Source of the DNA: Chloroflexus aurantiacus J-10-fl
Lineage (GTDB): Bacteria > Chloroflexota > Chloroflexia > Chloroflexales > Chloroflexaceae
Reading direction: 5' to 3'
Length of the DNA stretch: 64,000 nucleotides
Assembly: GCF_000018865.1 (NCBI RefSeq)
Contig: NC_010175.1
Span: 248,001-312,000, forward strand
How positions within the stretch are numbered: position 1 is the stretch's first letter; the number at the start of each line of letters is the position of its first letter. Below, in pieces: positions 36,999 through 51,104 of this stretch. The notes under the pieces are model-generated. The model did no database searches. It saw only the letters and a program-made list of their open reading frames with translations, and was not told the origin of the DNA. The position numbers were made by a program, and so were the translations under genes.

Positions 36999-37871
36999 TA
37001 GAACTTATTTCATACAAGCTGTGCTATCGTGTTTCCAGTCTATCGCCCAGGCGCCAACGCAGCATAGCCTGCTCCCTGGCTGCTGGTATGGCAGCGAGGA
37101 AGGCTGATCACTATCGTCGGTGCCATCACGTGCTGGGCTGGTTGCCTTGCCCGCTCGTCATGCGCGTGTTGCGAAGTTTGGAGTGCGGCAGCCATGCTGC
37201 CGCGCCAGCCGTGCTTACGATCTGGCGCGTGTCACGTGGTTGACCTGGCTGGAAACAAGGATGCTGTGTGTGCTCGTCACGATCATGGTTTCGGTCGGCA
37301 ATAGGAGATGTTTTTTGAAATAGGTTCTAGCCTGCTCCCTGGCTGCTGGTATGGCAGCGAGGAAGGCTGATCACTATCGTCGGTACCATCACGTGCTGGG
37401 CTGGTTGCCTTGCCCGCTCGTCATGCGCGTGTTGCGAAGTTTGGAGTGCGGCAGCCATGCTGCCGCGCCAGCCGTGCTTACGATCTGGCGCGTGTCACGT
37501 GGTTGACCTGGCTGGAAACAAGGATGCTGTGTGTGCTCGTCACGATCATGGTTTCGGTCGGCAATAGGAGATGTTTTTTGAAATAGGTTCTAGCCTGCTC
37601 CCTGGCTGCTGGTATGGCAGCGAGGAAGGCTGATCACTATCGTCGGTGCCATCACGTGCTGGGCTGGTTGCCTTGCCCGCTCGTCATGCGCGTGTTGCGA
37701 AGTTTGGAGTGCGGCAGCCATGCTGCCGCGCCAGCCGTGCTTACGATCTGGCGCGTGTCACGTGGTTGACCTGGCTGGTCACGGGGAGGCTGGATGTGCA
37801 TGTCACGTTCATAGAGTCTGTCAGAAGTGAATGGGCTAACTTCCAGTAAATGTTCTTTGAAGTAGGTTCTA
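36999..37871 (+). mobile_element. MITE-like element, copy B, internally triplicated
   Basis: Terminal inverted repeats: TAGAACTTATTTCA at 36999-37012 and TGAAATAGGTTCTA at 37316-37329 (one mismatch). A 263-bp segment (from 37067) is repeated in tandem at 37330 and 37593, each ending with the same GGTTCTA terminus; the last ends TGAAGTAGGTTCTA at 37871. Each unit carries the palindrome GCGGCAGCCATGCTGCCGC (37185, 37448, 37711). TA ends suggest a TA target, as for IS630/mariner MITEs. Non-coding. Confidence 0.75.
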
Positions 37872-39926: not shown

Positions 39927-40300
39927 AGTAGCGTTCCTTACCTTGTTTCACCGCTGATCGTTCAATTATGACAGCTTCTATCGTAGCGCTGTCGTACCGA
40001 TCATGGATCGTTCGCCCGACGGATCGTGCTGGTTGAGCAGCAATCAGGGCAAAGCCCTGTGCGCTCATCTATCCAAATTTATCAATCCCTTCACCGGCCA
40101 GCACCCGACCGTTTGACGCGCTACCTGACCAGTCGCCACTTGCACGCTGCCATCATCGCATCAACCACTCCAACATCTGCCCCCAATCCTTACCAAACCC
40201 TAACAAAACCCTCGTAAGACTCTAACGCTGGCACGGTATGCTACAACTGAACAAAAAAAAGTATGTCGGTTCACGAAATTGACGAAAGGGTAAGTAAGCA
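39927..40300. other. Upstream region of the sulfur cluster
   Basis: Divergent spacer between the MFS gene and the sulfur cluster. No gene and no regulator-binding palindrome that I could identify; short CCTTACCAAACCC / CCTAACAAAACCC direct repeats near 40187-40211 might be operator half-sites. Confidence 0.3.
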
Positions 40301-41482
40301 ATGACATTCACACCAGAACAATCGACGGTTACTGAAATTTCTCCCCGCGATCTGTATGCCCGCTTGCTGAGTGCGCAACCACTCTTTATCCTCGACGTGC
40401 GCAACGAAGAGGAGTTTAAGCGAATGCCGGTTGAGGGTCACGCAACGCTGCGCACACTCAATCTGCCATATTTTGATTTCATCGAGGATGAAGAGGCTGC
40501 GCTGGCGCGCCTGCCAAAAGATGTTGAAGAGTTCATTGTCATTTGTGCCAAGGGCGGCGCTTCCCAGTACGTAGCCGAGGTGCTGAACAATCATGGTTAT
40601 CGTGCCGTATCGCTCAGCGAAGGCATGATCGGTTGGGGCAACTACTACGACGTCCGCGACGTGGTGAAGGCCGATTGGGGACGCATCGTTCAGATTGCCC
40701 GACCTGCCCGTGGCGATCTCAGCTTTGCCGTGATCAGCGATGGTCAGGCGGCACTGGTTGATCCACTGCGCCACATTCAGGTTTACCGCGAACTGATCGA
40801 GAACGCGGGTGCCCGATTAACTGCTATTCTCGACACCCACGTCCACGCCGATCACATCAGTGGCGGCCCTGCGCTCAGCAAAGAGACCGGTGCTCCGTAC
40901 TATATCCACCCCTACGATGCCATTCACCCCATCGACATGCTGCCGGCTGTGATCGCCTACGAGCCACTCCGCGATGGGCAAACCTTCCAGATCGGTCAGG
41001 TACGTATCACCACCATCTGGTATCCCGGCCACACCCTCGGTCAGGTGAACTTCCTCGCCGAGACGCCGGATGGCGGACGCTACCTTTTCACCGGCGACGG
41101 AATCTTCCTGCGCTCGTTCGGGCGCCCCGACCTCGGTGGTAAGGGTGAAGCCTGGACCCCCATCCTCTACCGCAGCATGTTCGAGTGGCTGCCCCGGCAT
41201 CTGACCGACGACACCGTGATCCTGCCGGCCCACTTCAGCACGCTCGATGAAGACGCCGGTAATGGTATCTTTGCCGCACCGTTTGCTCAAGTCCGTGCCC
41301 AAAACGACAGCCTGCAACCGCGGTCGCTCGAAGAGTTTACCAGCTACGTCCTGAGCCACCTGCCGGTCTTCCCACCAGAATACGTAGAAATCAAGCGCGT
41401 CAACATTGGCCTGGTCGAAGCCTGTGAGGGCAAAGCCAGCGAGCTTGAGCTAGGCAAGAATATCTGTGCACTGGCCGGGTAA
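40301..41482 (+). CDS. Rhodanese-metallo-beta-lactamase fusion (persulfide dioxygenase-like)
   Basis: A 393-residue cytoplasmic protein. Residues 10-125 form a rhodanese domain with active-site loop VICAKGGASQYVA (Cys near 84). Residues 135-360 form a metallo-beta-lactamase fold with THVHADHISGG (HxHxDH), a later His in YPGHTLGQ, FTGDGIFL (Asp) and LPAHF. The MBL part resembles ETHE1-type persulfide dioxygenases; the rhodanese-first order differs from the usual ETHE1-rhodanese fusions. It would oxidise a persulfide carbon-sulfur carrier to sulfite or relay sulfane sulfur. First gene of the sulfur cluster, 82 bp before tusA. Catalytic activity is inferred. Confidence 0.85.
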   Translation: MTFTPEQSTVTEISPRDLYARLLSAQPLFILDVRNEEEFKRMPVEGHATLRTLNLPYFDFIEDEEAALARLPKDVEEFIVICAKGGASQYVAEVLNNHGYRAVSLSEGMIGWGNYYDVRDVVKADWGRIVQIARPARGDLSFAVISDGQAALVDPLRHIQVYRELIENAGARLTAILDTHVHADHISGGPALSKETGAPYYIHPYDAIHPIDMLPAVIAYEPLRDGQTFQIGQVRITTIWYPGHTLGQVNFLAETPDGGRYLFTGDGIFLRSFGRPDLGGKGEAWTPILYRSMFEWLPRHLTDDTVILPAHFSTLDEDAGNGIFAAPFAQVRAQNDSLQPRSLEEFTSYVLSHLPVFPPEYVEIKRVNIGLVEACEGKASELELGKNICALAG

Positions 41483-41505
41483 CGGTGTACAAAGGTATGA
41501 GTACT

Positions 41506-41530
41506 GGCGGCAGATCACGCTACTGCCGCC
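41506..41530 (+). promoter_or_regulatory. Hairpin before tusA
   Basis: A perfect 8-bp stem GGCGGCAG / CTGCCGCC with a 9-nt loop lies between the fusion gene and tusA. A TACAAT at 41541-41546 follows. It may be a processing or stability element; there is no T run. Confidence 0.35.
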
Positions 41531-41564
41531 GAATATACAGTACAATACAAGGAAGGAGAATCAT

Positions 41565-41813
41565 ATGCCACACTTCGATCAAACGCTTGATGTCAAAGGG
41601 GCAAAATGCCCGATGCCACTGGTGAAGAGCCGTAAGGCAATTACCGAACTGCCGGTAGGTCAGGTTCTGCAAGTTATCTCGACTGACCGCGGCTCGGTAG
41701 CCGACTTCCAGGGCTGGGCCAAGACGGCGAAGAACGTCGAACTGATCGCCCAGGAGACGGTACAGGAGAATGGTCAGGAGCTGTACGTCCACTATCTCCG
41801 CCGCACCGCCTGA
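41565..41813 (+). CDS. tusA: TusA-family sulfur carrier
   Basis: An 82-residue sulfur carrier. The CPxP motif KGAKCPMPLVKSRKAI holds the persulfide Cys (residue 14); TDRGSVADFQGWA is the usual second conserved segment. I use the ATG at 41565 with GGAAGGAGAA upstream; the frame extends back to 41466 into the previous gene. TusA proteins accept sulfane sulfur from rhodaneses and pass it to DsrE-type partners, which is exactly the neighbour here, 51 bp downstream. Confidence 0.92.
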   Translation: MPHFDQTLDVKGAKCPMPLVKSRKAITELPVGQVLQVISTDRGSVADFQGWAKTAKNVELIAQETVQENGQELYVHYLRRTA

Positions 41814-41864
41814 CCCCACATTCGGTTGCGCTGGTAGATCAACACAGGCAGAGGATGGAAAACA

Positions 41865-42440
41865 ATGACAACACCAATGACAGAAACAGTTGACACGCAG
41901 GCGCTGCTGAGCAGGATTGCCGAACTGGAGCAGCGGGTAGCCGCGCTCGAACAATCACCGGCCCAGAGCATCGAAGATCGGCTGGCGATGGTCGTCTTCT
42001 CTGGCGATCTCGACAAAGCAATTGCCGCATTCATTATCGCTACCGGCGCTGCCTCGATGGGTCTGGAAGTAAGCATGTTCTTCACCTTCTGGGGCATTAG
42101 TGCCGTCAAGAAGCAGAAGGTCTTCAGCGGAAAGAACCTGCTCGAACAGGGCTTCACCGCTATGCTCCCCGGCAAACTGGGTGAACTCGGCCTGTCGCAG
42201 ATGAACTTCTTCGGCGCCGGCGCCCAGATCATTCGCAACCTGATGAAACAGCACGATGTCGCCTCGCCGGAAGAACTCTTCGCCATGGCCCGCGAACTGG
42301 GTGTACGGATGGTCGTATGTGATATGTCGCGTGAGCTGCTCGGGATTAAAGATGAAGAGCTGGTTGATGGATTGGAAACCGGTGGTGTAGCAACCTTCCT
42401 CGGCGACGCGGCCCGTGCCAAAGTAACGTTGTTCATTTAG
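41865..42440 (+). CDS. DsrE2/DsrE-DsrF-like sulfurtransferase
   Basis: A 191-residue protein: an N-terminal coiled coil (ALLSRIAELEQRVAALEQ) and a DsrE/DrsH domain (LAMVVFSGDLDKAIAAFIIATGAASMG, FFTFWGISAVKK, MNFFGAGAQIIRN). The Cys in VRMVVCDMS, near residue 160, is the expected persulfide site. This is the DsrE2 class, often membrane-associated, which pairs with TusA and rhodanese in sulfur oxidisers. It is followed by a strong terminator-like hairpin, so transcription may drop after this gene. Confidence 0.88.
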   Translation: MTTPMTETVDTQALLSRIAELEQRVAALEQSPAQSIEDRLAMVVFSGDLDKAIAAFIIATGAASMGLEVSMFFTFWGISAVKKQKVFSGKNLLEQGFTAMLPGKLGELGLSQMNFFGAGAQIIRNLMKQHDVASPEELFAMARELGVRMVVCDMSRELLGIKDEELVDGLETGGVATFLGDAARAKVTLFI

Positions 42441-42474
42441 AAGAGCAGGTAACATTAGCAAAGTCATTGATCGG

Positions 42475-42518
42475 CGACGGCGCGATCACTTCGCAAGCGG
42501 AGCGCGCCGTCGTTTCTT
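42475..42518 (+). terminator. Terminator or attenuator inside the sulfur cluster
   Basis: A perfect 10-bp G+C-rich stem CGACGGCGCG (42475-42484) / CGCGCCGTCG (42503-42512) with an 18-nt loop, followed by TTTCTT. It lies between the DsrE2-like gene and the next rhodanese, only 20 bp before the latter's start. Confidence 0.7.
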
Positions 42519-42537
42519 GTGAAAGGATATTGAGACC

Positions 42538-42900
42538 ATGTTTCGACAACTCTTTCGCCGTGATGTAGTCCAGAATCATATTGCCACCATGACGGTTCAG
42601 GAGCTGAAAACACAATTGGATGCCCGTGCTCCGATGGTATTGATTGATGTACGCCAGCCTGAAGAATTCGCCTACGACGGCCACGTCTCCGGTGCCCGTC
42701 TGCTCCCCCTGCCGGTGCTGGCCTCGCGCCTGAACGAACTACCGAAAGATCAGCCGATTGTCTGCATCTGTCGTTCAGGTAACCGCAGCCAGGTAGCCTG
42801 TGAAATGCTTCAGCGCCATGGCTTCACCAACGTTACCAACGTCGTTGGTGGTATGGTTGCCTGGCAGCGAGCCGGTTACCCGGTGAGTCGTCAGCATTAA
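42538..42900 (+). CDS. Single-domain rhodanese
   Basis: A 120-residue rhodanese. The active loop CICRSGNRSQVA carries the catalytic Cys, and the fold is complete (IDVRQPEEFAYDGHVSGARLLPLPVL). The six-residue loop CRSGNR fits sulfane sulfur transfer. It lacks a signal peptide, so it is cytoplasmic, and is similar in sequence to the lipoprotein rhodanese at 45305-45715. It probably exchanges sulfane sulfur with TusA/DsrE2. Followed after 27 bp by the phosphatase-like gene. Confidence 0.92.
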   Translation: MFRQLFRRDVVQNHIATMTVQELKTQLDARAPMVLIDVRQPEEFAYDGHVSGARLLPLPVLASRLNELPKDQPIVCICRSGNRSQVACEMLQRHGFTNVTNVVGGMVAWQRAGYPVSRQH

Positions 42901-42927
42901 GGTTGAATCGCTTTCGTTTTGCAAGAT

Positions 42928-43437
42928 ATGGACACCACTATGCAACATCAGGCTATATGCAATACACTCCAGCACCAGACCGAAGTTGCGCCGTTGCGCA
43001 GCTATGTGGTTACCGAGAACGTGCTACTGGCTGCCCAACCGCAGCCAGAAGACTGGCAACGGTTTGTTGAGGCCGGCTATCAAACCGTGCTCAACATTCG
43101 CAGCGATCCCGAACGGGCGGCGCAACAGGCTGCCAATGCCCGCGCTGCCGGGTTGCGCTACATTCACGCCCCGTGGCCGGCTTATGAACTGGAGCCAGAA
43201 CATCTTGCCGAATTTGCCCGCATTGTAGAAGACCCGGCCACCGGCAAACTGGTCTTCCACTGCCGCAGTGCCACGCGCGTCGGCCTGATCTGGATGCTCT
43301 ACCGGATGGTACATCAGGGCTGGAGCCGCGAGCAGGCTGAAGCCGAACTGCGGGCAGCCGGTTACGACGATGATGCCATCGAGACCTTCGATTTCTGCGC
43401 CGGCGATTTCTTTGAACGGGTCGGGTCACAGGCATAG
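42928..43437 (+). CDS. Dual-specificity phosphatase-like / BLH-type protein (DUF442)
   Basis: About 169 residues with the protein tyrosine phosphatase fold of the beta-lactamase hydrolase-like (DUF442) family. The P-loop is VFHCRSATRVGL (HCx5R). In other bacteria, for example the BigR/Blh operons, this domain occurs in sulfide or persulfide detoxification, usually fused to an ETHE1-type domain; here it stands alone next to a separate rhodanese-MBL gene. I use the ATG at 42928 (a TTG at 42919 is also possible). It lies 11 bp before the SulP gene. Enzymatic substrate unknown. Confidence 0.83.
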   Translation: MDTTMQHQAICNTLQHQTEVAPLRSYVVTENVLLAAQPQPEDWQRFVEAGYQTVLNIRSDPERAAQQAANARAAGLRYIHAPWPAYELEPEHLAEFARIVEDPATGKLVFHCRSATRVGLIWMLYRMVHQGWSREQAEAELRAAGYDDDAIETFDFCAGDFFERVGSQA

Positions 43438-43448
43438 GGAGGGGAATT

Positions 43449-45215
43449 ATGACGCCCGTTTCAGCTCATCGGCCCGATGTGCAGGCAGCGTTGCTGGCGA
43501 TGATCTATCGCTATCTCCCATTCCTCAACTGGCTGCGCCATTATCGTCGTGAACACCTGCCGAGCGATGTGGTTGCGGGCATTGTGACGGCGATCATGCT
43601 CATTCCCCAAAGCATGGCCTACGCTCAACTGGCCGGTCTGCCCCCACAGATCGGCCTCTATGCCTCTGTTGCACCACTCATTGTCTACGCGCTTCTCGGC
43701 ACCTCCGGCCAGCTCTCGGTCGGCCCTGTTGCCATCACCTCGCTCCTCGTGTTTAGCGGTGTCAGCAGTCTGGCCGAGCCAGGCAGCGCACGTTACATCC
43801 AGCTAGTGCTGTTACTGGCGTTCATGGTTGGTGCGATCAAGCTGACATTTGGTGTGCTCCGGTTGGGAGCGATCCTAAACTTTATTTCGCATCCAGTACT
43901 GACAGCGTTTACCAGTGCCTCCGCACTGATTATTGCTGTTGGTCAGCTCAAATATATTCTCGGCTACCGCATCGGCGGCGAACACATCCACGAGACCATC
44001 GGCCAGGCAATTGCCGGTTTAAGCCAGACGAATCTGGTCACACTGACCATCGGTCTGGTCAGCATTGGCCTCCTCGTCTTTTTCCGTCAGGGTTTACGGC
44101 CCCTGCTACGCCGGACAGGTCTCCCACCATTGGCGATCACGCTGATTGTAAGCGGCGCACCGCTGCTCACCGTCATCCTGGGCATCCTGGTCGCCCAAAC
44201 CCTCTTCCTGGATCAAACAGCCGGCATTGCGGTAGTAGGAGCAATTCCGGCGGGTCTCTCGCCAATCAGTGTACCGGCATTTTCCATGGCCGATGCGCAG
44301 GCGCTCCTGCCAACCGCCCTGACCATCGTGCTGGTCAGTGTCGTCGAGTCTATTGCGGTAGCGAAGGCCCTGGCCAGTAAACGCCGGCAGGCTATCGATC
44401 CCGATCAGGAACTGGTAGCACTGGGAGCTGCCAACATCACTGCCAGCTTCTTCAGCGGCTATCCGGTTACCGGTGGCTTTGCCCGCTCGGTGGTGAATGC
44501 ACAGGCCGGCGCCATCACCGGTCTGGCGTCACTCATCACTGCCCTCGGAATCGCGGTGATTCTGCTCTTCTTCACCCCAGTCTTCTACTATCTGCCGCAG
44601 GCAGTCCTGGCCGCCACTGTCATCGTCGCCGTTATCGGATTGGTCGATCTGCGTGAACCCCGCCGTATCTGGCGCACCAACCGTGGCGATGCCTTCACCT
44701 GGTTGATCACATTCCTGGCGGTCCTCACCCTGGGCATCGAGACCGGCATCTTCGTCGGAGTTGCCTCGGCGCTCATCCTCTACCTCTGGCGCACAAGCCG
44801 CCCTCATATCGCGATTGTGGGTCGGTTAGGTGACAGTGAAGTGTACCGCAACGTCGAACGGTATCAGGTCAAAACGTGGCCGCACGTAGTGGCAGTGCGG
44901 GTTGATGAGAGCCTCTACTTTGCCAATACCCGCTACCTCGAAAGTGCCCTGTTGCAGATTGTTGCTGAACGACCATCGGTAAAACACCTTGTGTTGATCG
45001 GCTCAGCGATTAACTTTATCGACTCCAGTGCACTCCATACGCTCGAACATCTCATTGACGAACTGCGCGATGCCGGCGTCGAATTCCATCTGGCCGACAT
45101 CAAAGGGCCGGTAATGGATCGGCTCAAGCAATCAGAATTGATTGACAAAATCGGTCACGACCATATTCATCTGACGACCCATACCGCTATGCTGGCATTG
45201 GGTTGCCAGGATTAG
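43449..45215 (+). CDS. SulP-family anion transporter with STAS domain
   Basis: A 588-residue membrane protein: SulP/SLC26 transport domain (LPSDVVAGIVTAIMLIPQSMAYAQLAGLPPQ... signature in the first helices; about 14 helices) and a C-terminal STAS domain (residues 470-585, with the NFIDSSALHTL loop). Family members carry sulfate, bicarbonate or other oxyanions. In this cluster it may remove or take up sulfite/sulfate made by persulfide oxidation, taking the place of the TauE exporter of similar operons; direction is not determinable. GGAGGGG precedes the ATG at 43449. Confidence 0.92.
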   Translation: MTPVSAHRPDVQAALLAMIYRYLPFLNWLRHYRREHLPSDVVAGIVTAIMLIPQSMAYAQLAGLPPQIGLYASVAPLIVYALLGTSGQLSVGPVAITSLLVFSGVSSLAEPGSARYIQLVLLLAFMVGAIKLTFGVLRLGAILNFISHPVLTAFTSASALIIAVGQLKYILGYRIGGEHIHETIGQAIAGLSQTNLVTLTIGLVSIGLLVFFRQGLRPLLRRTGLPPLAITLIVSGAPLLTVILGILVAQTLFLDQTAGIAVVGAIPAGLSPISVPAFSMADAQALLPTALTIVLVSVVESIAVAKALASKRRQAIDPDQELVALGAANITASFFSGYPVTGGFARSVVNAQAGAITGLASLITALGIAVILLFFTPVFYYLPQAVLAATVIVAVIGLVDLREPRRIWRTNRGDAFTWLITFLAVLTLGIETGIFVGVASALILYLWRTSRPHIAIVGRLGDSEVYRNVERYQVKTWPHVVAVRVDESLYFANTRYLESALLQIVAERPSVKHLVLIGSAINFIDSSALHTLEHLIDELRDAGVEFHLADIKGPVMDRLKQSELIDKIGHDHIHLTTHTAMLALGCQD

Positions 45216-45240
45216 CAGCTTATCAAAAGCACCACTCTGC

Positions 45241-45271
45241 GAGTGGGTGAAGGCAACACCTTCGCCCACTC
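45241..45271 (+). promoter_or_regulatory. Intercistronic hairpin between sulP and the rhodanese lipoprotein
   Basis: A 13-bp stem (one G-U pair) GAGTGGGTGAAGG / CCTTCGCCCACTC with a 5-nt loop. No T run follows; it may stabilise the upstream message or reduce readthrough. Confidence 0.5.
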
Positions 45272-45304
45272 ATTGAGTAGCTCTATGCCGAAAGGTTTTC
45301 GACC

Positions 45305-45715
45305 ATGAAATACCGTTTTCTGCTTCTGCTGATGATCGGCCTGGCATTATTAACTGCATGTGGTACCACCACTGCATCAACCTCGACCACCAGCACACCG
45401 GCGAACATTACCGTTGCCCGGCTGAAGAGCATGCTCGACCAGAACGAAACCTTCTTCCTGCTCGATGTACGCACACCCGCCGAATTTGTCCAGGATGGCC
45501 GGATCGCTCAGGCCACGCTCATCCCACTTCAGGAGCTTGAGCAACGGCTGAGTGAACTACCAACCGACAAAACCATCGTCTGTATCTGCCGTTCAGGAAA
45601 CCGCAGTTCAGTTGCCTGCAACCTCCTCAAAGAGCGCGGCTATCAGGCTATCAATGTGACCGGTGGGATGAATGAATGGAAGGCCGCCGGCTACCCGACG
45701 GTGTTCGGGCAGTAG
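45305..45715 (+). CDS. Rhodanese lipoprotein
   Basis: A 136-residue exported rhodanese. The signal peptide MKYRFLLLLMIGLALL ends in lipobox LTAC (Cys19), so the domain would face outside, tethered to the membrane. The active loop CICRSGNRSSVA and DVRTPAEFVQDGRIAQATLIP are intact. It could bring extracellular thiosulfate or polysulfide sulfur to the SulP side of the membrane. Its TAG stop codon is the first three bases of the TAGAAC terminus of a MITE-like element, so the insertion may have set the gene's end. Confidence 0.88.
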   Translation: MKYRFLLLLMIGLALLTACGTTTASTSTTSTPANITVARLKSMLDQNETFFLLDVRTPAEFVQDGRIAQATLIPLQELEQRLSELPTDKTIVCICRSGNRSSVACNLLKERGYQAINVTGGMNEWKAAGYPTVFGQ

Positions 45716-46025
45716 AACTCATAAAAGCTGTGCGGTCGTGTTACTAGACGGTCGCACAGGCGCATAGCGCTTACTAATTGCCACCTCTCAGGCTGCTGAT
45801 ATGGCAGCGAGGAGGGCTAACGAGCATCGCCAGAGCCATCGCTCGTTGGATTGGGTCATTACCCGCCTGTCATGCGCGTGTAGAAGCATTTGGAGTGCGG
45901 CAGCCGTGCTGCCGCGCCAGCCGTGCTTCGTGCCGAGAGTGTGTCACACGGTTGACCTTGCTGGTCACGGGGATGCTGTGGGTGCGCGTTACGATCATAG
46001 AGTCTGTCAGCAATGTATGAGACAC
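45713..46025 (+). mobile_element. MITE-like element, copy C (degraded)
   Basis: Begins TAGAACTCATAAAAGCTGTGC, related to the TIR of copies A and B with a short deletion. Shared blocks include GGCTGCTGATATGGCAGCGA, the palindrome at 45897-45915 and GGTCACGGGGATGC. The right terminus is not recognisable. Non-coding. Confidence 0.55.
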
Positions 46026-47185: not shown

Positions 47186-48352
47186 TTACGATTCGCGAAT
47201 CAGAACATGGCTGACAGCAGTCGCCCCGATCCCGCCGAGTGACTGGCTCAGACCAATCCGGGCATTGCTCACCTGGGTCGGGCCGGCCTGCCCACTAAGC
47301 TGGCGAGTCAGTTCGATCACCTGATAGACCCCACTGGCGCCGCCCACATCACCGCGTGCTTTGTAACCGCCGAAGGTAGCAATTGGCGTCTTCCCGGTTG
47401 GGGTGATTGCGCCCTCGGCTGCATAGCGCGGTGCTGTTCCAGGTTCGTAGCAGCCAATTGCCTCTAAGGCAAGGGTGGCGGCAATTCCGTGCGGATCGGT
47501 CAATTCCCACACCTGCACATCACCAACACCCAGATGCGCCCGGCCAAGTGCAATATGGGCACTCGCCCGCGCTGCACTCAAGTCGAGCGGATTTCGCCGC
47601 CGATGGAGCGCCGGATGATCGGTGGCAACAGCCGAACCGGCAATGCGAATCCGTGGGCGGTCGAGTTCACGGGCAATCTGCTCACCCACAACGATCAGCG
47701 CAGCAGCACCGTCGGCCAGCGTACTGCAATCGAGCATGTTCAACGGTGAAGCGATCTGGGCGGCTTTCCGATATTTATTCGCATCAATCGCAAAGCGGTA
47801 CAGCGCCAGCGGGTTGTGCACACCGTTGGCGTGAGCATTGATCGGAAACGGCGCAAATGCATCGGCGGTATAGCCATACTCGTGCATATACCGGCGCATC
47901 AGCATCGCCCATTGTGCCGTCAATGTCACCCCGTGCAACGCCTCTTCAGTGCTGTCGGCAGCCATTGCCTGCGCAGCCTCGATCTCATCTTCGAGATGAT
48001 CGGTGACCTTATCAACCCCGATCACGAGTGCCACCGCCACGCCGTTTTGCACGGCCTGCACCGCCTGGTACAACGCCAGCGCCCCACTGGCACCAGCCGC
48101 CTCAACTCGATATGCCGGAATCGACGGTGACAGCCCCAGGATGCTGGCCAGATACGCACCAGCCTGGCTTTGACCGTAGAGTTCCTCGCTGAAGGCACTG
48201 CCAACATAGAGCGCTCCAATCTGATGCGGAGCAATCTCTGGCGCACTCGCCAGTGCCGCCCGCGCTGCCTCACTCACCAGATCGGCCAGCCCACGGCGAT
48301 AATGTTCGCCAACGGCGGTTGCCCCTATCCCTGCAATATAGACATTGGTCAT
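47186..48352 (-). CDS. Thiolase-superfamily protein lacking the usual catalytic Cys and His
   Basis: A 388-residue SCP-x/archaeal-type thiolase by fold. In active members a Cys sits in the VExACASG loop; here the loop is YRVEAAGASGAL, with Gly encoded by GGT where TGT would give Cys. The C-terminal GHP motif (His) is also changed: GGYKARGDVGGASGVYQ has Asp-Val. So Claisen condensation by the normal mechanism is unlikely. It sits 18 bp after HMG-CoA synthase and upstream of DUF35, the position of acetoacetyl-CoA thiolase in archaeal mevalonate operons. It may be a structural partner of the complex, or a thioesterase-like or other variant. The name thiolase describes the fold only. Confidence 0.82.
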   Translation of the reverse strand: MTNVYIAGIGATAVGEHYRRGLADLVSEAARAALASAPEIAPHQIGALYVGSAFSEELYGQSQAGAYLASILGLSPSIPAYRVEAAGASGALALYQAVQAVQNGVAVALVIGVDKVTDHLEDEIEAAQAMAADSTEEALHGVTLTAQWAMLMRRYMHEYGYTADAFAPFPINAHANGVHNPLALYRFAIDANKYRKAAQIASPLNMLDCSTLADGAAALIVVGEQIARELDRPRIRIAGSAVATDHPALHRRRNPLDLSAARASAHIALGRAHLGVGDVQVWELTDPHGIAATLALEAIGCYEPGTAPRYAAEGAITPTGKTPIATFGGYKARGDVGGASGVYQVIELTRQLSGQAGPTQVSNARIGLSQSLGGIGATAVSHVLIRES

Positions 48353-48370
48353 TGTTGCACTCCTGATAGA

Positions 48371-49420
48371 CTATCCCATCACCAGCTTACCGCGCCACTT
48401 CGCATAGATGGCGTAATCAATCATCACTGCCCGTTGCAGGTAGGCCGCGACAAGCGGTGCCCGCTCACGACGTTCCAGAACGGCTTCGGTAACAGTAAGT
48501 GCATAGGCATCGGAACCGGCCCCACTGCCGTAGGTCGTCATAAAAATCGTCTCACCCGGTTGGGCCACATCGAGGATAGCGCAGAGACCAAGCAGCGCTG
48601 CCCCGGAATAGGTGTTACCGATCTGAGGGCTGAGCAAGCCGGGGGCAATCTGTTTATCGGTGAAACCCAGGCGTTTGGCAACCGCTTGCGGAAACTTGGC
48701 ATTGGGTTGATGAAAGACGGCATAGGTGAAATCGGCTGCGGTGCGGTTGAGATGGCGTAACAATTCGGTAGCTGCTGACTGAATCTGATGGAAGTAAGCC
48801 GGTTCGCCGGTGAAGCGATTACCGTGCACCGGGTAGGGCCGATCGGCGCGACGGTAAAAGTCGGGCGTATCGGTCACGTATGACAACGTGGCATCAATGG
48901 TTGCCAGCGCCTCGCTGGCCGGACCAACGATCAACGCTGCGGCACCGGCGGAAGCAGTGTATTCCAGCGCATCACCGGGGCGGCCCTGCGCTGTATCGGC
49001 GCCGACGGCCAGCGCATAGCGTTGCATACCACTGCCAACCAGCGCCATCGCTGCGGTCAGCGCTTCAGAACCGGCTTTGCAGGCAAACTCCCAGTCAGCG
49101 GCGCTTACCCAGGGGCCGGCCCCCAGCGCATCGGCAACCACCGTCCCTGAAGGTTTCACGCTGTACGGATGGCTCTCACTACCGATCCAGACTGCACCCA
49201 ACGCCGTCGCCGGGATGGCGGCCCGGGCCAGCGCATTGCGAGCCGCTTCAATAGACATCGTAATCGTATCTTCGTCAGGACCCGGAACACTCTTCGCCTC
49301 GATTGGCGTTCCACTCTGCCCATCAGTCCAGACCCGGGCGATCTCGCGGGCAGCAATCCGGTACCGCGGGATATAGGCACCGTAGCCGACAATACCGACA
49401 GGATGCTGTGGTTTCATCAT
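48371..49420 (-). CDS. Hydroxymethylglutaryl-CoA synthase, archaeal type
   Basis: Condenses acetyl-CoA with acetoacetyl-CoA to HMG-CoA, 349 residues (archaeal length). The opening VGIVGYGAYIPRYRI, catalytic Cys in WEFACKAGSEALTAAM, and His in VFHQPNAKFPQAVAKRLGF are intact. The acidic general base region is near IGSESHPYSVKPSG. The start MMKPQHPVG at 49420 has GGAG about 10 bases upstream. It is second in the operon after HMG-CoA reductase, with an 18-bp gap to the thiolase-like gene. Confidence 0.92.
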   Translation of the reverse strand: MMKPQHPVGIVGYGAYIPRYRIAAREIARVWTDGQSGTPIEAKSVPGPDEDTITMSIEAARNALARAAIPATALGAVWIGSESHPYSVKPSGTVVADALGAGPWVSAADWEFACKAGSEALTAAMALVGSGMQRYALAVGADTAQGRPGDALEYTASAGAAALIVGPASEALATIDATLSYVTDTPDFYRRADRPYPVHGNRFTGEPAYFHQIQSAATELLRHLNRTAADFTYAVFHQPNAKFPQAVAKRLGFTDKQIAPGLLSPQIGNTYSGAALLGLCAILDVAQPGETIFMTTYGSGAGSDAYALTVTEAVLERRERAPLVAAYLQRAVMIDYAIYAKWRGKLVMG

Positions 49421-49581
49421 GAACTGTACTCCATGCAGATGTCAGGCATACCCAGACCGGCTCGCCTTCCGCAGGCGAACCAATACGTACCGAATCCTCA
49501 TCTGTTATCGGGAAACAGAGAGTCCCTTCACCGGCCAACCTGCCGGTGAACACAGGCGCATCATCACGCTGTTGGTGTCGG

Positions 49582-49604
49582 GGCGGCCTGCAGAACAGGC
49601 CGCC
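49582..49604 (-). promoter_or_regulatory. Intercistronic hairpin between mvaA and HMG-CoA synthase
   Basis: A perfect 9-bp stem GGCGGCCTG / CAGGCCGCC with a 5-nt loop, 13 bp after the mvaA stop. No T run, so it may be a partial terminator or stability element within the operon. Confidence 0.45.
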
Positions 49605-49616
49605 AGAGGTATCACA

Positions 49617-50936
49617 TTAGTTGTGCGTGGGGTTACCTATCGTGCGCCCTTCGAGTTCGGCAATGATCTCTTCAGCACGCGCCAGTTTGATATTCCGCTC
49701 GGCGACCATGCGCCGGGCAACTTCATCAACCAGGGTACCACTGGCACCGGCAGCCATCGCGATCTGGCGGGCATGCAGGCTCATATGTCCCTGTTGAATA
49801 CCCTCACAGGCCAGAGCACGCATCGCCGCCAGATTATTCGCCAGACCGGCAGCGACACAGACCTCGGCCAGTTCAGCAGCGCTACGCACACCGAGCAGTT
49901 TCAACGCGGCCTGGGCGGTGGGATGGACTTTGGTTGCGCCACCCACGATCCCTACCGCCAGCGGCATTTCGAGCGTACCAACCAGGTCACCCTGCGCATC
50001 ACGCTCCCAATGGGAGAGTGACGTATAGTGACCATTGCGGCTGGCGTAGGCATGCGCACCCGCCTCTACCGCACGCCAGTCGTTACCGGTTGCGACCAGC
50101 ACCGGGTCAATGCCGTTCATAATGCCCTTGTTGTGGGTTGCCGCCCGATAGGGATCGACCGCAGCAAACGCATAGGCCCAGAGAATGCCTTCAACAACCT
50201 CTTCGCCACTCAAACCATCGCGGGCCAGCGATGCTGCCGGCACCACACAACGGGCACGAGCCAGCCGACGGTCGGTCAGATTCGAGAGAATGCGCAGATA
50301 GACCTTACCACCGGTCATCTCGGCCAGCAGCGGTGCGACCGCCTCGGCCATCGTATTCACCGCGTTGGCACCCATCGCATCGCGGCAATCGATAATCAAA
50401 TGCACAACCAGCATCGGCCCCATCGGGCTGGTGGGGAAGAATCGTACCTCAACATCGCGTGCTCCGCCACCCAGACTGACCAGCGAACGACTTTGCGCAT
50501 TGGCCAGGGCAAGAATCTCTTCCTTACGCGACAAAATCGTTTGCCGGGCCTGATCGGGGTCGCGAACATTGACCAACTGCACCTGACCGATCATCAGTGG
50601 TTCGGTACTGCTCGTCTCAAACCCACCCCCGTCTCGCACCATCCGCGCCGCGTAGCTGGCCCCGGCCACAATTGACGGCTCTTCAACCACCATCGGAATC
50701 AGATAATCACGGCCATTGATACGGAAGTTGGTCGCGATACCGAGCGGCAGATTATAGGTACCGATCACATTCTCAATCATTTTATCGGCACGCTCAATCG
50801 TGAGCGCACCACCATGGCCGCCGTGCAAGGCGCGTAAGTCTTCATCGACTAATCCATCAAAGGATTTCACCATTTGCAGTCGCTCAAATGGATTAAGCTG
50901 ATAAAACCCTTGTAAGCGAGAACTCTTAGTCCCCAT
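49617..50936 (-). CDS. mvaA: HMG-CoA reductase, class II
   Basis: Reduces HMG-CoA to mevalonate (or the reverse), about 439 residues. Class II signatures: [29 protein letters not shown] (catalytic Asp), THNKGIMNG (Lys) and [15 protein letters not shown] (His). I use the ATG at 50936 because AAGGAGGCG lies upstream; the frame extends to 51020. It is the promoter-proximal gene of the operon mvaA - HMG-CoA synthase - thiolase-like - Yip1 - DUF35. Chloroflexus is known to make isoprenoids by the mevalonate route, so the biosynthetic direction is likely. Confidence 0.94.
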
Positions 50937-51104
50937 ATGAGGACGCCTCCTTCTCTCAATATATATTTGTCTTCCGCTGTTACGATACCACGACAATAGT
51001 CGCGAAATGGTTAACAACAACTGTCAAAACCTATCATACGCCTGTCTGGCTGCTGTCATGAGAGCTATACCGTGCGTATGTTGACGTATGGTACAATAGA
51101 GTAC

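Follow-up and report, generated by a model that had tools for sequence, protein, structure and literature searches.

A cluster of seven genes in Chloroflexus aurantiacus J-10-fl, located at positions 40301-45715 of a 64,000-nucleotide stretch (the window; NC_010175.1, 248,001 to 312,000, part of a single 5,258,541-base contig), is read here, with a probability of about 0.7, as a cassette and regulon for the oxidation of sulfane sulfur (persulfide), built from known parts and equipped with a SulP transporter of a type linked to persulfide dioxygenases (PDOs) and with a regulator of its own. By domain content, the cluster unites putative sulfurtransferases and sulfur carriers (rhodaneses, a stand-alone DUF442 protein, TusA, and a DrsE_2-family protein) with a PDO-type metallo-beta-lactamase (MBL), beside the PDO-linked SulP. 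An initial annotation, made from the sequence alone, had placed seven sulfur-trafficking genes here on one strand; open reading frames (ORFs), Pfam, and NCBIfam confirmed positions and families, all on the forward strand (+), with Pfam scores of 56.2 bits for MBL, 31.6 for Rhodanese, 60.9 for TusA, 166.8 for DrsE_2, 46.8 for BLH_phosphatase, 359.8 for Sulfate_transp, and 66.5 for STAS. Coordinates refer to the window unless a locus (L), genome (G), or contig (C) of the comparative set is named, and published background is drawn from excerpts of the papers cited by PMC number.

Conservation of the Cassette in Chloroflexales

The core of Rhd-PDO (a rhodanese fused to the PDO-type MBL), TusA, the DsrE2-like protein, DUF442, and SulP is a conserved Chloroflexales cassette. 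A DUF442 search of 120 genomes of the class returned 28 matches. Of these, 25 are strong (E of 7.8e-45 or below); the other three, in G082, G118, and G019, are weak, and the region of the G082 match held no cassette genes. Relatives of the cassette include Chloroflexus, Chloroploca, Oscillochloris, and Roseiflexus, and the 25 strong loci keep one gene order and strand wherever the contig permits. Rhd-PDO is missing from L050 and lies on another contig end in G076 and G080 (L079 and L080), and 13 of the 25 loci have the single-domain rhodanese at its usual position. In 19 of the 21 loci uncut by a contig end, the first identified gene behind DUF442 is SulP (with a gap of up to ~570 bases, in L043); by this gene-neighbourhood check, SulP is a conserved neighbour of the cluster. 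In one of the two exceptions (L037, the same locus as L088, from Oscillochloris sp. ZM17-4), TauE (PF01925, 170.2 bits) and an FAD oxidoreductase take its place; the other, L050, has neither SulP nor TauE. A TauE/SafE gene is also found in SulP's place, by similarity, in L092, and SulP thus stands where TauE would, as had been proposed. A search with SulP itself matched 45 genomes, of which the cassette-type loci and six further contigs were read; an orthologue of at least 71% identity was present in 22 of the 120 genomes, with 19 adjoining DUF442 and three on broken contigs.

The last gene of the cluster (45305-45715, +) encodes a rhodanese with a signal sequence and the tetrad LTAC, which we take to be a lipobox. 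Judged solely from these two features, the lipoprotein probably lies on the outer membrane face, outside the cytoplasm. Its proposed status as a conserved neighbour holds within Chloroflexus (six of six uncut loci) and fails elsewhere, where it is adjacent in just 2 of 15 uncut loci. A rhodanese lipoprotein gene lies ~5 kb upstream in L044, and in G025 (L246) it is third behind the same repeat box that precedes the cassettes (see below), after a rhodanese and an FAD oxidoreductase.

The SulP Transporter and Its Clade

The SulP-STAS anion transporter (43449-45215, +) passes TIGR00815 (487.9 bits against a cut-off of 380.45) and carries both PF00916 and PF01740; its best solved relative is AtSULTR4;1, an H+/sulfate symporter. 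In a FastTree phylogeny, 39 SulPs, all drawn from PDO-type loci, form one clade with a support of 0.993, and by this placement the protein belongs to a clade whose members have PDO genes as neighbours in several phyla. Alignment equates Gln112, Tyr116, Glu347, and Arg393 of AtSULTR4;1 with Gln54, Tyr58, Glu300, and Arg346, which are kept in all clade members but L178b (Phe, Gln). At the position of Ser390, 37 of the 39 members have Gly (Gly343 here), and at that of Ser392, 27 have Ala (Ala345 here), including all 20 of Chloroflexales type (19 plus L068). Ser392 of AtSULTR4;1 is a sulfate-binding residue and Glu347 the proton-coupling one, and the S392A mutant lost nearly all sulfate transport (PMC8298490). 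Since the residues that set selectivity follow no clear pattern, according to the excerpt of the same paper, a changed SulP substrate is put forward only as a hypothesis.

The same neighbourhood recurs on plasmids. In a sample of 17 of 440 SulP-matching plasmid records (8 of the 15 best and 9 of a spread of 40), picked for annotation and diversity and not at random, an MBL or Blh gene lay within 5 kb of SulP in 11 of 11 cases of at least 43% identity (with YeeE/YedE in seven and an ArsR-type gene in seven), versus an MBL gene in none of six cases of 21-29% identity. Plasmids of Sphingobium and Diaphorobacter are annotated with a separate MBL, a stand-alone TIGR01244 (DUF442) protein, and SulP, with DUF442 directly before SulP, so that the arrangement is not the unusual one that the initial annotation had seen in it. 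The idea of a unique exchange of TauE for SulP was likewise abandoned, since SulP beside PDO-type genes is common on plasmids. An adjoining PDO and SulP are already in print for Methylophaga thiooxydans, whose mto clusters contain PDO, SqrB, and sulP (PMC6548844); no further case was found in the excerpts of PMC12998232 and PMC12345210. Outside the order, three genomes (L176, L177, and L178) have SulPs of 41-56% identity beside MBL and rhodanese genes, the MBL of L176 reading MBL-rhodanese-rhodanese and thus CstB-like; in L180 and L181, the contig ends before the SulP neighbourhood can be judged.

It seems rather unlikely that this SulP is an ordinary proton-coupled importer of sulfate (or bicarbonate) that stands behind a sulfur-trafficking operon by chance. 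Such a role would suit its closest solved relative, the retained proton-coupling Glu, and the assimilatory sulfate reduction described in the genome paper (PMC3150298), but it sits poorly with a PDO neighbourhood that tracks this SulP type in the plasmid sample, with the loss in most of the clade of a serine whose replacement by Ala nearly abolished sulfate transport in AtSULTR4;1 (PMC8298490), and with the presence of a second, rhodanese-fused SulP in the genome. On the direction of transport, the occurrence of TauE at the SulP position points to export, and conservation of the proton-coupling Glu points to uptake.

The second SulP of C. aurantiacus is a SulP-STAS-rhodanese fusion (L173:7525-9645, +; C1:1725524-1727644). 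A fusion of this kind adjoins the cassette SulP in L095, and other Chloroflexales genomes contain long SulP frames of 700-840 codons with 31-36% identity.

A Candidate Regulon

Upstream of Rhd-PDO, an array of four 11-bp direct repeats (40189-40226, +, with two mismatches here) is a candidate site for a PhoB/OmpR-type response regulator. Seven Chloroflexus loci share this repeat block, the L032 copy with three mismatches. Of 17 other cassette loci, 16 have the array CTTAC-N6-CTTAC-N6-CTYGT-N6-CTTAC at about -180 to -60 with no more than two mismatches, and the copy of L047 is degenerate. When two mismatches were allowed, the box matched at 34 places in the 120 genomes; 26 of these copies have no more than one mismatch, and eight have two. 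The 26 copies fall in 22 genomes, all of which bear the regulator described below, and none falls in the 93 genomes lacking it. They precede Rhd-PDO (20 copies), TusA (one, in G072), a rhodanese-response regulator-histidine kinase set (four, in G034, G048, G056, and G086), and a rhodanese-FAD-lipoprotein set (one, in G025); the two-mismatch boxes of G000 and G046 also belong to cassettes.

A PhoB/OmpR-type response regulator and a histidine kinase are encoded immediately before the cassette in L036 and L050. In L049, L051, L052, and L053, their genes come 5.4-6.4 kb after SulP, and in G025 and G060 they are embedded in a molybdoenzyme-NarJ-TusA-DrsE_2 gene group. This lead came from a clustering of conserved ORFs that was nevertheless dominated by antisense ORFs. 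In C. aurantiacus, the system is not adjacent and is encoded ~143 kb from the cassette, with the response regulator gene at C1:144835-145593. A regulator orthologue (E<=1e-85) occurs in 27 of the 120 genomes, namely all 25 with a strong DUF442 match plus G025 and G066, the latter with a remaining fragment of SulP; this amounts to 25 of 25 cassette genomes against 2 of 95 others, a co-occurrence uncorrected for relatedness. The orthologues share 66-100% identity, versus at most 57% for the next-best paralogues (23 genomes). Within genus g2, G060 has a cassette (of the TauE type), the regulator, and the molybdoenzyme, G025 has the regulator, the molybdoenzyme, and the boxed rhodanese-FAD-lipoprotein set, and G006 has none of them. 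The conserved upstream array together with the co-occurring two-component system suggests a dedicated regulator, and the joint occurrence of box and regulator, uncorrected for relatedness, is taken as good evidence for a dedicated regulon. The cluster is flanked on the opposite strand by an MFS gene on the left and by OB-fold (ChsH2-type) and Yip1 genes on the right (Pfam), and no regulator gene directly flanks it. The earlier statement that no CsoR- or BigR-type regulator is adjacent was therefore correct, but it was incomplete as an account of regulation, given the dedicated system suggested elsewhere in the genome.

A role of this system in phosphate control, with the 11-bp repeat as a Pho box, the regulator as the PhoB of the phosphate regulon, and a cassette answering to phosphate instead of sulfur, is unlikely. 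PhoB binds repeats of 11-bp period, as found here, and is the regulator's best NCBIfam match, at a score below the cut-off (235.8 vs 296.2). Against this stand the one or two sites per genome at no more than one mismatch, every one of them located at the regulator operon or at genes of cassette type, the lack of an orthologue (E<=1e-85) in 93 of the 120 genomes, which presumably need phosphate control as well, and the location of the system within the molybdoenzyme-TusA-DrsE_2 gene group in G025 and G060. A cysteine-based sensor was also considered and rejected; in 12 aligned copies of the histidine kinase, the short loop joining its two membrane helices has no Cys.

In G025 and G060 (L210:6723-7085 and L179:9096-9926), the two-component system has the molybdoenzyme-NarJ group on one side and a second, divergent TusA-DrsE_2 pair on the other; G025 also has an ArsR/SmtB-type gene in between.

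The Dioxygenase Assignment of Rhd-PDO

The first gene (40301-41482, +) encodes an N-terminal rhodanese (residues 16-113) fused to an MBL domain (141-281), a layout that matches the Rho-PDO fusion, and PDB relatives and sequence motif point to an MBL of the PDO type. Its motif THVHADHIS fits the pattern T-H-h-H-A-D-H-h-T/S of type I/II PDOs (PMC6060420). Alignment of 10 operon-type sequences (A2) showed H180, H182, D184, H185, H244, D266, and H311 to be invariant in all 10, among them the 2-His-1-Asp iron ligands H180, H244, and D266. In the PDB ranking, MBL-rhodanese and PDO-type entries, including ETHE1, come above glyoxalase II (1qh3). The protein is neither a Blh, in which DUF442 is fused to ETHE1 (NF040641, whose cut-off is 625, gave 37.2 and 49.9 bits), nor a CstB. 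CstB (presumably PDB 3r2u) has the MBL followed by a C-terminal rhodanese, and its cst operon has the CsoR-type CstR adjacent; here the rhodanese is N-terminal and the flanking genes are no regulators.

We regard it as very doubtful that the MBL is a thioester or persulfide hydrolase and not a dioxygenase, with the FAD/CoA-disulfide-reductase-like partners of some loci reducing sulfane sulfur to sulfide. Hydroxyacylglutathione hydrolase is the best NCBIfam match, at a sub-threshold 63.3 against 200.8, and an FAD oxidoreductase occurs in L036, L037, L069, and L090 and a CoA-disulfide-reductase-rhodanese type gene in L050; yet the dioxygenase is favoured by the HADH motif and by PDO-type entries outranking glyoxalase II in the PDB, and a reductase lies directly in the cassette only in L036, L037, and L050 of the 25 Chloroflexales loci.

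C. aurantiacus has a second Rhd-MBL gene (L065:7879-9036, -; C1:4795881-4797035), 47% identical to Rhd-PDO, and a copy of this type is present in seven Chloroflexus genomes. The three iron ligands (H, H, D) are kept, and the other His and Asp of HxHxDH and the PAH histidine are lost, in four of four genus copies.

Sulfur Carriers and the Core in Other Phyla

Next to Rhd-PDO follow a TusA-type sulfur carrier with a single Cys, C15 (41565-41813, +), and a DrsE_2-family carrier, also with a single Cys, C152 (41865-42440, +). The latter scores 83.8 bits against the NCBIfam DsrE2 equivalog NF047629, below its cut-off of 210, and is a member of the wider PF13686 only; it has no convincing membrane helix, its most hydrophobic 19-residue stretch containing two Asp and one Lys. 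The label "DsrE2-like" was therefore apt, and "DsrE2" itself would not be. The fourth gene (42538-42900, +) encodes a single-domain rhodanese with a CRSGNRS loop, in which no signal peptide was seen. It is followed at about 42928-43437 (+; alternative starts 42919 and 42940) by a stand-alone DUF442/TIGR01244-type (BLH_phosphatase) protein, which passes Pfam PF04273 (46.8 vs 26.1) and reaches 61 bits against TIGR01244, below the cut-off of 85.85. Signatures of protein tyrosine phosphatases have X5, and the loop here and in 15 of 15 relatives read is HC-X4-R. "Phosphatase-like" thus stands as a description of the fold, and a phosphatase function was rejected; for the DUF442 domain of Blh, sulfurtransferase activity has been measured (PMC5823870). 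As the initial annotation held, DUF442 and MBL are encoded by two separate genes.

A profile search of genome contigs with the Rhd-PDO alignment, from which the best 80 loci were kept, extended the core beyond the order. In 43 of these 80, Rhd-PDO has TusA- and DrsE_2-type genes no more than 6.5 kb away; the 43 belong to Chloroflexota, Bipolaricaulota, Planctomycetota (Gemmatales), Acidobacteriota, Methylomirabilota, Bacteroidota, Actinomycetota, and haloarchaea. Among the best 80, TauE matches (28-100%) occur in eight loci, SulP matches in 10, and a molybdoenzyme gene sharing at least 50% identity with the L105 one in 14. YeiH-type putative sulfate exporters are present in L096, L098, and L127, CsoR-type genes in L096, L100, and L105, and an SQR-like gene in L096.

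C. aurantiacus has a molybdoenzyme of the L105 type, 65% identical, in a complex at C1:4298393-4303984 (L171:5894-11485, -) composed of the Mo subunit, the Fe-S and NrfD subunits fused in one gene, and a NarJ-like chaperone gene. Comparison with SoeABC found the Mo, Fe-S, and NrfD domains in C1:4299328-4303984, the latter two fused. Because of its gene neighbours, a sulfur substrate is suggested for this enzyme, perhaps sulfite as in SoeABC. It was rejected as a fixed partner of the cassette, being present in 11 of the 25 cassette genomes and absent (E<=1e-100) from the other 14. Control of its Fe-S/NrfD gene by the repeat box was rejected as well, as no box was seen in the 300 bases before the L171, L182, and L183 copies. 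Elsewhere in C. aurantiacus, an SQR-like gene is preceded by a small TusA-like gene (L172:6818-8383, +; C1:753743-754852).

Sulfur delivery for biosynthesis (tRNA thiolation, molybdopterin, or Fe-S), a task that rhodaneses, TusA, and DsrE relatives perform elsewhere and that would fit the retention of TusA and DrsE_2 genes alone in G052 and G096, is a most improbable purpose of the cassette in view of the PDO motif, the PDO-linked SulP, its replacement by TauE, and the molybdoenzyme, SQR-like, and CsoR-type neighbours in other phyla.

Relation to Known Systems

The closest relative of studied function is the yrkD-J/nreBC/sqr/pdo cluster of Bacillus licheniformis (PMC9918477), in which DsrE, a rhodanese, the PDO homologue YrkH, TusA, and TauE are found together and the two-component system NreBC has a part in regulation. 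In contrast, the Chloroflexus cluster has SulP for TauE, a stand-alone DUF442, and a non-adjacent PhoB/OmpR-type system, and lacks a CsoR-type repressor and an SQR within the cluster. The bigR operon with Blh (PMC5823870) likewise combines a DUF442 sulfurtransferase, an ETHE1-type dioxygenase, and a transporter, whereas here DUF442 and MBL are separate, the MBL has an N-terminal rhodanese, SulP replaces TauE, no BigR-type ArsR repressor is adjacent, and TusA and DrsE_2 are added. Rho-PDO fusions are described for cable bacteria and Bacillota (PMC13047784), with HXQADY in Desulfobulbales as opposed to the full THVHADHIS here, where the fusion sits in a TusA-DrsE_2-DUF442-SulP cassette. The Methylophaga mto clusters (PMC6548844) and the plasmid PDO clusters share the adjoining SulP and PDO-type gene, and the Sphingobium and Diaphorobacter plasmids also the separate DUF442 directly before SulP, but the plasmid clusters have YeeE/YedE and ArsR-type genes (7 of 11 each) in place of TusA-DrsE_2 and the two-component system. 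In a literature search conducted mostly at title level, no published description was found of the Chloroflexales cassette as a unit, of the SulP clade with its changed site, or of the repeat box with the two-component system. The parts are individually known; their combination, the modified transporter site, and the likely dedicated control switch look new.

Other Features of the Window

The gap separating genes three and four holds a GC-rich hairpin followed by a T-rich tail (42472-42520, +), terminator- or attenuator-like, which is kept in seven of seven Chloroflexus loci with energy z-scores of -1.1 to -3.6; it was not found in the corresponding gap of L036. Given this conserved hairpin, the cluster may not be a single simple transcript. 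A sigma-70 promoter assigned by consensus was rejected, with one site observed versus 3.8 expected from shuffles. ORFs at 37120-37323, 37646-37849, and 45778-46020 encode similar peptides (with FGVRQPCCRASRA) and hint at a repeated intergenic element, one copy of which lies directly behind the cluster. To the right, beyond the OB-fold and Yip1 genes, ORFs at 47186-51020 (-) resemble, by eye, thiolase, HMG-CoA synthase, and HMG-CoA reductase.

Proposed Function and Significance

Several findings weigh against an oxidation cassette with a dedicated SulP and regulator. SulPs from outside the clade (L105, L106, L153, L158, and L161; 31-34% identity) also lie near Rhd-PDO, so the neighbourhood is not exclusive to the clade, and Glu300, as the counterpart of the proton-coupling Glu347, favours uptake over export. 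On the regulatory side, the C. aurantiacus box is imperfect, six further two-mismatch boxes (G025:C114, G060:C168, G028, G016, G005, and G003) are not at cassettes as far as examined (the first two were opened), a reversed-pattern control gave seven hits at up to two mismatches, and no box was found at two mismatches in the regulator-bearing G040, G066, and G117; the co-occurrence of the regulator with the cassette may also partly reflect relatedness. The lipoprotein is rarely adjacent outside Chloroflexus, G052 and G096 retain TusA and DrsE_2 genes but no other part of the cassette, and the molybdoenzyme is missing from more than half of the cassette genomes. In the excerpt of a survey, no SoeC is listed for Chloroflexi, whose NrfD-type subunits are filed with a tentative formate:quinone oxidoreductase, FqoC (PMC8076601). 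Finally, some owners of the cassette are, we take it, anaerobes, e.g., Candidatus Chloroploca asiatica (L086), and PDO chemistry needs oxygen.

With these points considered, oxidation of sulfane sulfur remains the preferred reading. Briefly, rhodaneses and DUF442 would load sulfane sulfur, derived from sulfide oxidation by SQR or from thiosulfate and polysulfide, onto thiols, TusA and the DrsE_2 protein would carry it, and Rhd-PDO, judging from its family, would oxidise the carried sulfur to sulfite. The lipoprotein may take up sulfane sulfur outside, and SulP would move a sulfur oxyanion, sulfite or thiosulfate more likely than sulfate; a path from external sulfane sulfur to sulfite or sulfate transport, as first envisaged, is plausible. 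Where present, the membrane molybdoenzyme encoded elsewhere may oxidise sulfite further, and the PhoB/OmpR-type system would bind the fourfold repeat and control the cassette. A more specific version, held tentatively and at slightly less than even odds, is that Chloroflexales possess a dedicated sulfane-sulfur regulon in which this system, by binding the fourfold 11-bp repeat, switches on Rhd-PDO, TusA, DrsE_2, rhodanese, DUF442, and SulP, and in which the anion site of the PDO-linked SulP has changed from sulfate to another sulfur oxyanion, e.g., sulfite or thiosulfate.

In the excerpt of the C. aurantiacus genome paper (PMC3150298), SQR is given as the enzyme for sulfide use, and the term rhodanese is absent. 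The cassette would offer a path for sulfane sulfur beyond the SQR step. The repeat box and its co-occurring regulator form a directly testable prediction, and a SulP clade in which Gly and Ala replace two sulfate-site serines would turn the substrate of the SulPs in sulfide-oxidation clusters into a testable question.

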